NCBI GenBank assembly: GCA_001929475.1
Contig: LXFE01000460.1
Span: forward strand, 1 to 21,292
Origin: Neolecta irregularis DAH-3
Taxonomy: Eukaryota > Ascomycota > Neolectomycetes > Neolectales > Neolectaceae
DNA: 21,292 nucleotides
Direction of reading: 5' to 3'
Part shown: positions 3,369 to 21,292 of the stretch, one piece after another
How the letters are laid out: every line of letters starts with the position of its first letter
Position numbering within the stretch: the first letter of the stretch is position 1
Notes under the pieces: generated by a model
Seen by the model: the letters and a program-made list of their open reading frames with translations, nothing else
Database searches by the model: none
What the model was told of the DNA's origin: nothing
Position numbers and translations under genes: made by a program

Positions 3369-3847
3369 GAAAAGGTGCTAACTTTCACCTGATCCGCCCG
3401 CCCTTCTCTCCCGCTTCGCCCTCCTCGCCCGCCTCGCCTACACCCGCTATCGCATCCCATGAGTCCAGGTCCATCAAGGTCCGCAGCCTCAACATCGTCC
3501 AGGCCCACCCCACCCCACCCTGCGTTAAAGCAACCGCCACGACCCGCTCCCCCAGACCAGAGTCTGGCTTGTCCAGAAGTCTCGCATCCTTCCGCAGGTC
3601 CGCCAGGATCGCTGAAATAGCTGGCGATCTCAATGTAAAAGAAATGCGGAGGCTTATCGAACGCGCTGATCGCCGCGCCCAGCGTGGTCTGTCCCACGTT
3701 TTCAGTGCAGGCAGACTCCTCCCCAACAAGCGCGGTCCCTCCAAGTCAGTGCTTAGATTACGCTGTATGTATATCAAAAATATGAAAATACGAAAATCAT
3801 CTATATGCAAGTATAGTTTTCCAACCGGAAACCCGAGGAAAAGATGA
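3369..3847 (+). CDS. Uncertain GC-rich ORF
   Basis: An open frame without stops from about 3369 to 3847, GC-rich until about 3750. It starts Pro/Ser-rich and then contains a charged, helix-prone segment (SLASFRRSARIAEIAGDLNV and KEMRRLIERADRRAQRGL). The first in-frame ATG lies late, inside the helical segment, so a complete gene would need an upstream exon I cannot find. A competing minus-strand frame of similar length exists at 3385-3861. The segment is tail to tail with the microtubule polymerase gene at 3932. No family recognised; probably a gene remnant. Confidence 0.3.
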
Positions 3848-7014: not shown

Positions 7015-7072
7015 GGGCGGCAAGGGCGGGAGCGGCAGCGGGAGCGGCAGCGGCAGCGGGAGCGGGAGGCGT
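7015..7072. repeat. (GGSAGC)n hexanucleotide repeat
   Basis: Alternating GGGAGC and GGCAGC units immediately upstream of the STU2 start codon, hence probably in its 5' leader. On the STU2 sense strand it reads GCTCCC/GCTGCC. Confidence 0.8.
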
Positions 7073-7363: not shown

Positions 7364-8950
7364 ATGGCCTCGCTGCTGCTCTCAGACCGCCAGCGCGACG
7401 ACCTGTACACCCCCCCGCCCGCCGCCGCCCTGACTCCAGACACAAGGCCATCCTCGCCTACCTCGCCGCCGCAAACCTCCAGTCCGCCCACAGCGCCCTC
7501 CTCGCAGACCTCAGCCTCGACCAGCCTGCAGACTCAGACCGCCGCTACCACGGCCTCCTCGAGAAAAAATGGACAAGCGTCATCCGCCTCCAGAAGAAGG
7601 TCCCTCCCCCCCAAAATACTCTCCCGCTCACACCCCCGCCAGATCATGGACCTCGAACAAAAGGTACACACCCTCACCACCGAGCTCGAGACCTCCCCCT
7701 CCACCCGCCAGGCCTCAAACGATCCCCTCTCCTGGCTCCCCCGCTCCCCCGCCCGCTACTCCTTCACCGGCCACCGCGCCCCAGTCACCGCTGTCGCCTT
7801 TCACCCCATCTTCACCACCCTCGCCAGTGCCTCAGAAGACTCCACCATAAAAGTCTGGGACTGGGAGACCGGCGACTTTGAGATGACTGTCAAGGGTCAT
7901 ACAAAAGCGGTGGGCAACATCGACTTCAATCCAAGTGGCTCGCTCCTCGGTTTGCTCCCCTCCTGCTCTCTCCCGCGTTGACTTGCTCTCTCAGTCTCTT
8001 GCTCATCAGACCTCACAATCAAAATATGGGACACAGGAAACGAATACAAAAACATCAAAACGCTGCACGGTCACGATCATTCCATCTCTTCTGTTAAATT
8101 CATCACTTCCGGAGAAACCATCGTCAGCGTCTCCAGAGATCGTACAATCAAAGTCTGGGAGGTTTCTACAGGGTTTGCTCATTCTCAATCCGCAACTCAT
8201 CCCAAGCTATTGCACCCGCACAATAAAAGGCCACACCGATTGGGTCCGTGACATTTCACCTAGCGACGATGGGAATTTCGTCTTGAGCGCCAGCAATGAT
8301 CAGGTAACACCCTGCCACCGAGTGTCCTCATTCAACTCTAGACCGCAAGAATATGGGAATTACAGACCGGAGAATGCAAAGTCGAGCTTCGTGGTCATGA
8401 ACATGTCGTTGAGTGTGCGGCCTTTGCCAATATTGCCGCTTATCCCTATCTTGCAGAAATATCTGGCGTCAAACTGGTATCTCGAAGTACTGATATTCTG
8501 TATATCTCAAGAAATAGGCTGGATTGAAAAACGGAACCGGTTCAGAGCTGCCTGCAGGTCAATTTATCGCTACAGGGTCACGCGATAAAACTATAAAGCT
8601 CTGGGATGCTCATGGGTCTTTGTTTAAAACCCTGGTACATGCATTTTCTCTCTTGCCTAACAAAACAGCATGGTCACGATAACTGGGTCAGAGCAGTCTT
8701 GTTCCACCCTGGCGGGAAATACCTCCTCTCTGCCTCTGATGACAAATCAATCAGATGTTGGGACTTGTCACAGCAAGGTCGTTGTATTCGCGTCATCGAA
8801 GACGCCCATGGCCATTTTGTGAGTTGTCTTCGCTGGGCTCCAGGCAGGAAACCAACAACAACAAACGGTGAGGAACCTTCAAAGGGGCAGGTTCGGTGCG
8901 CTGTTGCATCTGGCGGTGTGGATCTCGTCGTAAAGGTTTGGATGCCTTGA
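7364..8950 (+). CDS. PAC1: LIS1/PAC1/NudF dynein regulator (LisH plus seven WD40 repeats)
   Basis: Predicted 438-aa protein from eight exons: 7364-7404, 7440-7599, 7643-7949, 7995-8172, 8207-8303, 8342-8476, 8518-8634 and 8669-8950. Introns are GT-AG, 34-45 nt, all in frame. The family binds the dynein motor domain and, with NudE and NudC partners, supports nuclear migration and dynein loading at microtubule plus ends. A LisH motif lies at the N-terminus ([17 protein letters not shown] across the first junction). A short coiled coil follows ([19 protein letters not shown], residues about 53-72). Seven WD repeats start near residue 100, marked by [66 protein letters not shown] and [11 protein letters not shown]. 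Length is typical of the family. The start is the first ATG and matches the family N-terminus. GC content falls clearly from the first to the last exons. Confidence 0.95.
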
Positions 8951-11980: not shown

Positions 11981-12738
<758 letters not shown>

Positions 12739-18722: not shown

Positions 18723-19270
18723 AAGACGGTGTAGGAGTCGGATGTAGTTGTTTAATATGAGGGTGTATAAACGTTGACATCTCAACTTCAATTGATACAA
18801 AGACCAATACTTGAGGCTACTCACATGATATCTGGGTGGTCTGTGAATCAATTAAATTTAAAAAGACAGGTATTGATATCATATGCCCAGTCCTCATCCC
18901 TCCTACTTGAATGATGTAATTCTGGATCTCACAGTGCTAGCCGGTGCTTCATTCTTTGCATACTATGCATTTGATTCACAAGCCAGAGTGCATAGATACT
19001 TTTTTCGCAGTGATGAATGATGGGAATGCGATGCCTGATATTCTTCTGAGGTCTCATATCTACTGAGGTTGAGACAAACAGGGCTTCACATGGGCAGGGC
19101 TGGATCCTCAGAAAAGCCAACGGGCGTTGGCGCATCCATCACACTGGAGAAAAGCAAGACAAAGGCCATCCTTGTGACATGATGACTCAGTGGCAGCTTC
19201 TGCCATATTCTGACTTCTCAGTGGGACTTCTCTTAAAGCATCAGCTTTGAGACACGCCAACATTTTAACC
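18723..19270. other. Intergenic, no gene seen
   Basis: About 550 bp without convincing coding sequence on either strand. It contains a short palindrome, GCCAACGGGCGTTGGC (19116-19131), which could be a factor-binding site upstream of the secreted-protein gene. Confidence 0.45.
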
Positions 19271-19280
19271 TCTATAAGTG
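19271..19280 (+). promoter_or_regulatory. TATA box of the secreted repeat-protein gene
   Basis: TCTATAAGTG lies about 42 bp upstream of the proposed start codon at 19316. This is a suitable distance for a short 5' leader and supports 19316 as the true 5' end. Confidence 0.6.
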
Positions 19281-19315
19281 GACAAGATCCGTTTATCTAG
19301 GAGACAGAGTACAAC

Positions 19316-21292
19316 ATGTTGTTTCTGAGGCATTTCCTTTTCTTTTGTGGATGCTACTTATGTTTGCAGGACTATATCCTTCGGCATCCTTGCTGTCATG
19401 CATGCTAGTGCAACACACCAAGATCTTGTGGCAAATACACAGGTTATCACACATGATCCCAATGATCTACCAGCATTCGACCCAGTAACCGAGCTGAAAA
19501 AACTATGGGATAATCCACCTGAAAATGGCATTCGTCGGTGTGATAAGAAACAGTACAAAGACATGAAACGGGAATATGGAGATCCATTTTATATTGTGGC
19601 AGTCATATTAGACGGATGCGAACCTGTAGGTAAAGGTGCGGCTGCTCTCAATTATGATAGTATAATGAGTTGTCGAGCTCAGTTGAGAAAGTCATCGAAG
19701 ATTTTGGTAACACTTTATGACTGTGGTCCTATTGATCTGGCAGTTTACTAAATCAGATCCAACCAAACCGTTTCAACAGACAGCGAAGCATGCTATTGAA
19801 ACAGTTCTGGAAACAATCGTCAATGATAAAAACTATTTGAAATACAAGAATGATCCACAGAAATGGGTATATGACATGCTTGTGCCTAAGCTTCGACCAC
19901 AGCTTTTCTCGCACTTGGGGTGATCTCTTCTCCTTATGGATGCTGCTTATGGTTATAGGAAGGTACACTCGGTCACTCCTGTCATAGGTGCTACTGCAAC
20001 ACACCGAAATCTTGTGGGAAATACACAGGCTGCCACACCGGATCCCAACGATCTACCAGTGTTCGACCCAGTAGCTGAGTTGAAAAAACTATGGGATAAT
20101 CCACCTGAAAAAGGCATTCGTCTTTGTCATCATCGTCAGTATGACCACATGAAATGGAAATATGGAGAACCATTTTATATTGTGGCAGTCATATTAGATG
20201 GATGCGAACCCTTTGGTAGATCTGTGGATAACCCCACGTATTACAGTATTTCTCATCTTCGATCTTGGTTGGCAAAGTCGTCAGAGATTTTGGTAACACT
20301 TTGTAACTGTGGCCCTATTGATCTGGCAGTTTACTAAATCAGATCCAACCAATCAATTTCAACAGAAAGCGAAGCATGCTATTGAAACAGTTCTGGAAAC
20401 AATCATCAATGATCAAAAATATTTGAAATACAAGAATGATCCACGGAAATGGGTACATGACATGCTTGTGCCTAAGCTTCGACCACAGCTTTTCTCGCGC
20501 CCGGGGTAATGCCTTCTAATTATGGATACTGCTAATGTTGTAGGAAGATACAGTCCGCCACTCCTGTTATTGGTGCTACTGCAACACACCCAATTCCTGT
20601 GGGAGATACACAGGTTACCACACAGGATCTCATTGTTCCACCAGTATCCAAAAATGTACCCGAGTTGGAACAACTATTGAAAGCTCTACAGGACTGCAAA
20701 ATTCCTGATAACAATATTGTACCAGTGTCCAACGGAGTATCCAAATTCGAAGAACTATTGGAAACTCTGCCCCCAGCAGGAATTGGTCTGTGTGAGCAGA
20801 CTGACTACCTTGATATAAAGGCCAATTATGGAGATCCTTTCCTGATTGTGGCAGTCATGTTAAAAGGATGTATACCAAATATTTATCGAGGTAAAGAAGG
20901 TGAAGACGCATATCGCAGGATCAAGAGACGTCGATCTTTGTTGAGAAAGTCGTCAGAGATTTTGGTAATGCTTTGTGACTGTGACCCTATTGATTTGACA
21001 GTTTAAAAAATCAGACCCAATCAATCCATTTCAACTGGAAGCAAAGCACAATATTGAGACAGTTCTGAAGATAATCAGCAATGATCCACAATATTTGATA
21101 TACAGGAATGACCCGGAGAAATGGGTATATCACTCCCTTGTGCCTATTCTTTATCCATTCAACGGCTCGAACAAAGAGAAGTATTGCCAATTCATTACTG
21201 GATGCTGCTTATTGTTGCAGGAATGTCAAGCGGAAATCCAGCAATAGCTCTGTTGGACCTCCAAAAAAGCAACAAAAAATAGATCATGTCAA
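19316..21292 (+). CDS. Secreted tandem-repeat protein, unknown family (3' end outside window)
   Basis: At least 569 codons from eight exons: 19316-19329, 19370-19706, 19744-19919, 19959-20292, 20330-20505, 20544-20964, 21002-21180 and 21221 to beyond 21292. All seven introns are 37-40 nt and alternate phase 2, 0, 2, 0, 2, 0, 2. The N-terminus MLFLRTISFGILAVMHASA is a clear signal peptide; its first intron is GC-AG. Three tandem modules follow (residues about 24-175, 176-345 and 346-545). The first half of each ends YGDPFYIVAVILDGCEP and KSSKIL; the second half starts FTKSDP, with AKHAIETVLETI and NDPQKWVYDMLVPKLRP. Two Cys per module (IRRC and LDGC types) are conserved and could pair. Module 3 is more diverged. 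The last visible exon is basic (KNVKRKSSN, PPKKQQK). No enzyme motif is visible. It could be an effector or surface protein. Confidence 0.75.
19330..19369 (+). other. GC-AG intron separating the signal-peptide exon (40 nt)
   Basis: The 3' half (GGATGCTACTTATGTTTGCAG) resembles the 3' ends of the three inter-module introns, so this is an acceptor of the same origin. No GT donor fits between the ATG at 19316 and this site. GCATTT at 19330 gives a 40-nt phase-2 intron and yields a complete signal peptide in frame. Confidence 0.6.
19370..19919 (+). repeat. Repeat module 1 (two exons and a 37-nt intron)
   Basis: First coding cassette of the secreted protein. Coding halves are 19370-19706 and 19744-19919. 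Closely similar to module 2 at DNA level, including inside the intron 19707-19743. Confidence 0.85.
19959..20505 (+). repeat. Repeat module 2
   Basis: Coding halves 19959-20292 and 20330-20505. The second half is exactly as long (176 nt) as in module 1. The intron 20293-20329 keeps the sequence and 37-nt length of module 1. Confidence 0.85.
20544..21180 (+). repeat. Repeat module 3, diverged and enlarged
   Basis: Coding halves 20544-20964 and 21002-21180; the intron 20965-21001 is again 37 nt. The first half is 421 nt against 334-337 in modules 1 and 2, because the PVS-V-ELEQLLKAL segment is present twice in related form. Confidence 0.8.

Follow-up and report, generated by a model that had tools for sequence, protein, structure and literature searches.

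The window (the whole 21,292-nt stretch of DNA that was analyzed) is one entire contig, C360, of an assembly of 8,961,725 bases (8.96 Mb) in 363 contigs. Its right end carries a gene of at least eight exons that encodes a protein made of three copies of a module, each built from an exon A and an exon B. When seven GT-AG introns were spliced out between the ATG at position 19316 and the end of the contig, 566 codons with 0 stops remained; read without splicing, the three frames contain 28, 33, and 22 stops. Both outcomes had been predicted by an initial annotation of this DNA.

All features of the gene lie on the plus strand. In the upstream region (19201..19315) begins a stretch, 19202-19420, which includes the first exon and its intron and is 89% identical to C111:14717-14933, on the contig of a paralog. 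Coding exon 1 (ATGTT, 5 nt; 19316..19320) ends in phase 2 and is followed by a 49-nt, phase-2 intron that interrupts the leader peptide (19321..19369). The remaining leader (MLTISFGILAVMHASA) and the A domain, with a conserved C-x25-C and the sequence YGDPFYIVAVILDGCEP, are encoded by exon A of module 1 (19370..19706), which is separated from exon B (19744..19919) by a 37-nt, phase-0 intron (19707..19743). An intermodule intron of 39 nt, phase 2 (19920..19958), the 3′ half of which is like that of intron 1 (repeat family D5), leads to module 2, composed of exon A (19959..20292), a 37-nt, phase-0 intron (20293..20329) and exon B (20330..20505). A second intermodule intron (38 nt, phase 2; 20506..20543) precedes module 3, in which exon A (20544..20964) is 28 and 29 codons longer than in modules 1 and 2, respectively, and is followed by a 37-nt, phase-0 intron (20965..21001) and exon B (21002..21180). 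The last intron (40 nt, phase 2; 21181..21220) is followed by a tail exon (21221..21292) containing a bipartite stretch resembling a nuclear localization signal (NLS), KRKSSNSSVGPPKKQQKID. The contig itself stops at position 21292, which leaves the gene truncated at its right end. Intron phases run 2, 0, 2, 0, 2, 0, 2, which confirmed the previously proposed arrangement of three A-B cassettes with 37-nt, phase-0 introns inside and 38-40-nt, phase-2 introns behind each.

In modules 1, 2, and 3, exon A measures 337, 334, and 421 nt and exon B 176, 176, and 179 nt, all differences being multiples of three, and modules 1 and 2 comprise ~170 residues each. Internal exons thus span 176-421 nt and introns 37-49 nt. 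The three introns behind exon B (39, 38, and 40 nt) differ by single bases, and the direct repeats underlying the modules were detectable independently of the gene model. The segment 21221-21292 does not form a fourth cassette; it is a tail exon, with a counterpart on contig C236 and an NLS-like part that also occurs on C111. An alternative A|B acceptor 13 nt downstream (TTTACTAAATCAG) looks like a better branch site and acceptor, but was rejected, as its use would bring exon B out of frame and into a stop (module 2, by eye).

A dynamic programming search that allowed GT..AG introns of 30-60 nt required a minimum of seven introns to open the gene from its ATG to the end. Out of 200 dinucleotide shuffles of the gene, 159 had no open chain and the other 41 needed 14-22 introns; the minus strand of the same stretch, for which only the first three bases served as starting points, had no open chain. 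The gene model is open, and far from what chance would produce. The same splicing procedure gave seven introns of 35, 43, 45, 34, 38, 41, and 34 nt in a PAC1/LIS1 gene of the window (7364..8950, plus strand), whose 438-aa product aligns collinearly with LIS1 structures in a single stretch covering residues 5-400. Introns as short as this (34-45 nt) are therefore ordinary in at least one neighbor. It is plausible that automated annotation would split the window gene into several short genes, as had been expected, and gene finders tuned to longer introns would probably miss the family described below.

Paralogs and database searches

Three genome searches with different module queries returned an identical set of nine A domains, of which C360 has three, C111 and C100 have one each, and two genes on C166, one on the minus and one on the plus strand, have two each. 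These counts are lower bounds; one query added two pieces of shrunken modules on C111. In total, the family comprises nine A-B modules spread over five gene models, plus the tail of a sixth gene on C236. The paralog models encode 483 (C111), 621 (C166 minus), 721 (C166 plus), and 309 residues (C100, tail uncertain). When C111, C166 minus, and C166 plus were shuffled 60 times each, 46, 46, and 53 shuffles had no open chain, and the remainder needed at least 10, 12, and 14 introns, whereas the genes themselves need 5, 3, and 3. The C111 gene was modeled with six introns, one more than the minimum of five, as one intron can also be read through. A 39-nt intron of C111 (L010:4852-4890), starting with GTGGTG, has no in-frame stop, and its retention would keep the frame open.

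All five models have a common layout, in which the first exon is short, the hydrophobic leader is interrupted by a phase-2 intron, and exons A and B are separated by a phase-0 intron that comes after a leucine; C111 is exceptional in having three reduced exons ahead of A. At pairwise identities of 24-72%, the A|B intron occupies one and the same alignment column in all nine modules. In the first module of C166 plus (C166:9281-9318, plus strand) this intron was read with a GC donor at the shared position; a GT-only chain with three introns was also found for this gene by dynamic programming. Eleven columns are invariant over the nine modules, including both cysteines of exon A, and a core, YG.PF.IVA.ILDGC.P, is recognizable in each. 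On C236:1-210 (L041), the contig starts inside the last intron of the sixth gene, in a stretch homologous to the last intron of the window gene; the tail (NTKRKSGDDSAEPPKKQRKTD) shares 80% identity with that of the window gene across 111 positions, and no module was seen on this contig. The window contig ends ~110 nt further along than the C236 start, at the matching place of its own gene. As assembly breaks fall in family genes, further copies may be missing. Taken as a whole, the anatomy of the window gene and of the family is well supported.

Searches of the databases revealed no relative. No Pfam family exceeded its curated cut-off (the best, PhyR_sigma2, had an E value of 0.0018 and lay under its own), the best profile match in PDB had an E value of 0.2, and in a set of proteins none of the 7993 best word-sharing candidates reached E<=0.01 and, in a second search, none of 1861 candidates reached E<=0.1. 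Pattern matches to viral contigs numbered 11, none of them a relative. The initial annotation had proposed that the conserved core belongs to no known family, which held for Pfam, PDB and the protein set; the exact core that it named, YGDPFYIVAVILDGCEP, occurs only in module 1, its equivalents being YGEPFYIVAVILDGCEP in module 2 and YGDPFLIVAVMLKGCIP in module 3. In a control search of the protein set with a 114-residue piece of the neighboring HECT ligase gene, 23 of 25 candidates were relatives, the top one with 54% identity over 89%. This control shows thin coverage of the relatives of this fungus, so absence from the protein set is weak evidence, and the family may occur in other fungi. 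An orphan family would be the best reading of these searches, in which fungal coverage was thin.

Leader, basic motif, and possible destination

The N-terminus contains a hydrophobic stretch in all five models (leaders MLTISFGILAVMHASA in the window, and MLIISVGILAVMHATA, MLTWLFCFVAFAVFHLAA, MLFSWSLWLVALPVFHLAA, and MFFAWTLWFSAFVVSQLIP), with a best 12-residue mean of 1.82-2.82, although stronger hydrophobic 12-residue windows also occur elsewhere, at 2.48 in the module 3 core of the window protein and 2.17 in the uncertain C100 tail. This is in line with the signal peptide that had been proposed, as a signal-like leader. Leaders and NLS-like motifs were judged by eye, with simple patterns and a hydropathy window. 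By the same inspection, four of the five leaders have A-x-A or A-A after the hydrophobic stretch, and in these four HQ or NQ follows shortly beyond.

An NLS-like basic motif follows the first or last module in six of six copies (PKKQQKID, PKKKRKID, AKRAKIN, HKVARID, PKKSARVD, and PKKQRKTD). It lies in the linker between modules in both C166 genes, and behind the last module in C360, C111, and C100. Per copy, 2-18 of 1000 shuffles contained such a motif, by a pattern that was written post hoc, after the copies had been seen. Its strength is uneven, with some copies weak, that of C100 among them. The strict K-[KR]-x-[KR] occurs in four of the six copies, and in the window gene only inside module 3. 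The bipartite rule was satisfied by two of six tails (the window and C236), but when the window protein was shuffled 1000 times, 449 of the shuffled sequences also contained a bipartite match. AlphaFold2, run on exon A alone (the three window rows), gave a mean pLDDT of 45.9 and a pTM of 0.31, and this low pLDDT makes a helical picture of the domain a weak one.

The explanation that we prefer, and that we consider equally apt to prove right or wrong, is that this is an orphan family of effector-like proteins, secreted and probably directed to a nucleus, in which module number changes by duplication of phase-2 cassettes. The N-terminal peptide would take the protein into the secretory pathway. 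The module may be a small, probably helical domain, in which the two invariant cysteines of exon A may pair, and would act as a repeated binding unit. Through the basic motif behind the module(s), the whole protein or a processed fragment would reach a nucleus, in the simplest case one belonging to a partner cell, in the manner of SP7-like effectors. From sequence we infer secretion, nuclear entry, and any host alike. A role at a host or environment interface, as suggested by the initial annotation, may apply; the NLS-like motif, which that annotation had not seen, argues for an intracellular, nuclear end point and not only for a role at the surface or in the environment. The earlier interpretation as a whole is thus partly supported.

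Much of the same anatomy would be expected of a protein of the cell wall, or of an internal protein anchored in a membrane. The first of these, a secreted or wall-bound adhesin or surface repeat protein with a basic motif that is incidental or serves for processing, is unlikely in our judgment. It would account for the signal-like leader, the repeated domains, and a possible disulfide, and change in copy number is typical of fungal surface repeats; the recurrence of the basic motif behind the module(s) in six of six copies stands against it, as does the fact that the three models whose ends are complete (C111, C166 minus, and C166 plus) lack, by eye, a hydrophobic anchor at the C-terminus, with the caveat that the uncertain C100 tail contains a hydrophobic stretch. 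In Kex2-processed repeat proteins, repeats are separated by dibasic KR sites, whereas the boundaries between modules 1 and 2 (FSHLGKVHS) and modules 2 and 3 (FSRPGKIQS) have no KR by eye; a KRK occurs at the border of module 3 and the tail. More improbable still is an internal protein, of the cell's own nucleus or its endomembranes, with the hydrophobic start serving as a membrane anchor and not as a cleaved signal. The NLS-like motif and the long, acidic-looking linkers of the C166 proteins would suit a nuclear regulator, but A-x-A or A-A followed by HQ or NQ in four of five leaders and the conserved cysteine pair in A count against it.

The preferred reading, of secreted effectors, has a possible parallel in the SP7-like effectors of arbuscular mycorrhizal fungi, which an excerpted description presents as a small, Glomeromycotina-specific family with a signal peptide, a variable number of repeats, an NLS in several members, a conserved intron before the first repeat, and strong sequence divergence, the SP7 repeats being hydrophilic, imperfect units that end in a conserved island (PMC11333574). 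By that description, to which our comparison with SP7 is confined, the two families would share a design of leader plus nuclear signal with variable repeats, along with small family size and strong divergence, and the phase-2 leader intron of all five models resembles the intron before the first SP7 repeat, a shared design that is not proof of descent. In contrast to SP7, the family described here has a two-exon module of ~170 residues with a hydrophobic core (YG.PF.IVA.ILDGC) and two invariant cysteines, introns flank every module of the window gene, and the NLS-like motif stands behind the module(s) instead of ahead of the repeats.

Two animal gene families offer further comparisons, again as described in excerpts. 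The micro-exon genes (MEGs) of Schistosoma encode secreted proteins with symmetrical exons and fast evolution (PMC4350168; PMC10526429), the exons being 3-81 bp and lying between long introns (PMC4350168). The window gene is like them in apparent secretion, a symmetrical unit, and fast change; its symmetrical unit is, however, an exon pair, and its internal exons and introns fall outside the MEG pattern. Bicycle genes of aphids are effector-like, with ~17 small exons, nearly all internal ones in phase 2, and a structure better conserved than sequence (PMC9168663). Phase-2 starts of internal exons, a structure that outlasts sequence and, here as a proposal, an effector-like character are common to both, but the six internal exons of the window gene (2-7) start alternately in phase 2 and phase 0 and are larger. 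We would place the design beside SP7-like effectors (by description), MEGs, and bicycle genes, the defining features of the latter two being absent. Among the matches listed in a thin look at the exon-duplication and repeat-effector literature, none of the excerpts described a fungal family with this layout.

Module gain, loss, and rate of change

The cassettes run from phase 2 to phase 2 and had been proposed to be expandable, a proposal borne out by three full modules in C360 and by C111, where three shrunken in-frame modules, each starting and ending in phase 2, are followed by one full module. The reduced modules of C111 start like A, and at least two of them end like B (by eye). The phase-2 introns preceding the later modules of C360 and C111 have a 3′ half like that of the leader intron (D5; others by eye), and in the later modules of C360, the leader together with its flank recurs in degenerate form at the start of exon A (KVHSVTPVIGATATH compared with TISFGILAVMHASATH). 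Because of these intron halves and degenerate leader copies, the duplicated unit most likely extends from the interior of the leader intron through A and B. In the C166 genes, two modules are joined via long linkers without an intermodule intron. In the C166 minus linker, a 49-residue unit (EFLQPEDLDGSTGTYPLHW...VDYIDLETD) occurs about three times between the two modules; VDYIDL in this protein and VIVVDD in C166 plus resemble what we take to be SUMO-interacting motifs.

The relationships among modules vary with the exon analyzed. A whole-module tree placed C360 modules 1 and 2 together with the C111 module and module 3 outside, with low inner support (0.60 and 0.73), whereas module 1 paired with C111 in an A-only tree (support 0.34) and C111 fell outside all three C360 modules in a B-only tree. 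Between modules 1 and 2, identity is 77% in exon A, 34/37 in the A|B intron, and 93% in exon B, the lower figure for exon A than for the adjoining intron being a sign of fast change. Among the three closest modules (A or A+B), dN/dS was 1.02-1.41, with 1.13, 1.24, and 1.41 for the A+B pairs; positive selection on these three whole-module pairs was not significant (Fisher p 0.68, 0.51, and 0.18), nor was exon B of module 1 compared with C111 (Fisher p 0.20). For modules 1 and 2, the initial 28 codons of A gave p 0.026, a value that is uncorrected and concerns a stretch that is leader in one and linker in the other. Module 3 compared with modules 1, 2, and C111 gave 0.86-0.93 (A+B). Windows inside A ranged from 0.21 to 5.37 without a consistent pattern, and the lowest, A[28:56] at 0.21 (modules 1 and 2), lies outside the YGDPF core. 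The core itself, A[56:84], gave 0.70, 1.29, and 1.14 in the three closest pairs and 0.41-0.60 with module 3. These sub-windows do not consistently indicate purifying selection on the core, and as the core window gives 0.41-1.29, conservation of the core rests on alignments and not on dN/dS.

A dN/dS of ~1 between close modules, core window included, together with the shrunken modules of C111, is what would be expected of a decaying array in unconstrained drift, an explanation that we find very improbable. Four models stay open for 566, 483, 621, and 721 codons without a stop, exon indels are multiples of three, and 11 columns are invariant over nine modules; moreover, when 91 random substitutions were placed in module 2, the module remained stop-free in just 45 of 2000 simulations, which makes drift alone unlikely. 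The slightest chance of all falls to three separate two-exon genes (A-intron-B-stop), for which it may be said that the B exons of modules 1 and 2 run into a stop immediately past the donor if the intron is kept, as is expected of ordinary donors since a phase-2 GTRA donor puts TAA or TGA in frame, and that an ATG inside the preceding intron is in frame with exon A of module 2 (frame 19924-20337), but against which count the scant 38-39 nt for a terminator and a promoter between modules, the lack of an ATG before IVAVM in exon A of module 3, a hydrophobic leader start in only module 1 of the three, and the equal chained layout of C111.

Returning to the effector reading, the phase-2 introns, which are short and alike, would recombine unequally and thereby add or remove whole cassettes in frame, and such change would allow the protein to alter fast while the core stays recognizable. 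We put forward tentatively, and as rather doubtful, the wider proposal that these are lineage-specific effectors, secreted and directed to a nucleus, that their domain is one not described before, that their valency is tuned by cassette duplication and shrinkage via phase-2 introns of less than 40 nt, and that splicing could set both valency and destination: if intermodule intron 1 or 2 were kept, the chain would end after one or two modules and the nuclear tail would be lost. If the reading is right, a very compact fungal genome would hold an orphan domain family of secreted repeat proteins that grow and shrink by intron-bounded cassettes, caught in one snapshot with three full modules in C360, a single full one alongside three reduced ones in the sister gene C111, and two with long linkers in C166. 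It would offer a clean case in which to ask whether tiny phase-2 introns favor modular effector evolution, and a candidate family of nuclear effectors probably outside Glomeromycotina.

Neighboring genes and other sequences

Besides PAC1/LIS1, the window contains a Stu2/Alp14-like gene, a HECT ubiquitin ligase, and an acid phosphatase domain. Pfam identified a family in one of seven neighboring ORFs; a piece of the acid phosphatase gene at 12274-12621 (minus strand) matched PF12689 with an E value of 4.3e-13. Pieces of ribosomal protein L3 had their best PDB match to 8esq_B (388 bits), the next entries scoring 374 and lower. We take 8esq to be from Schizosaccharomyces pombe, which would point to Ascomycota, perhaps close to Taphrinomycotina, and the L3 entries that follow are presumably from other fungi, none of them identified as Glomeromycotina. 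An assignment to the fungi is supported by L3 and by the Stu2/Alp14-like neighbor. GH28 had no match in the genome (the control matched in 4 of 14 named genomes); AA9 and MSG were likewise without a match, but since their controls matched in no genome either, these two negatives carry no weight. Rfam, at gathering scores, returned nothing for the window. GC-rich tandem repeats occur at 1-39, 1593-1776, 3394-3438, and 7026-7068 of the window, and translations resembling them were seen by eye close to the family members of C111, C100, and C166. Two ORFs, at 3371-3600 of the window and at C111:16915-17151, share an RSIKV-SL-IV-AHP pattern (by eye), perhaps a dispersed repeat or a second gene family.
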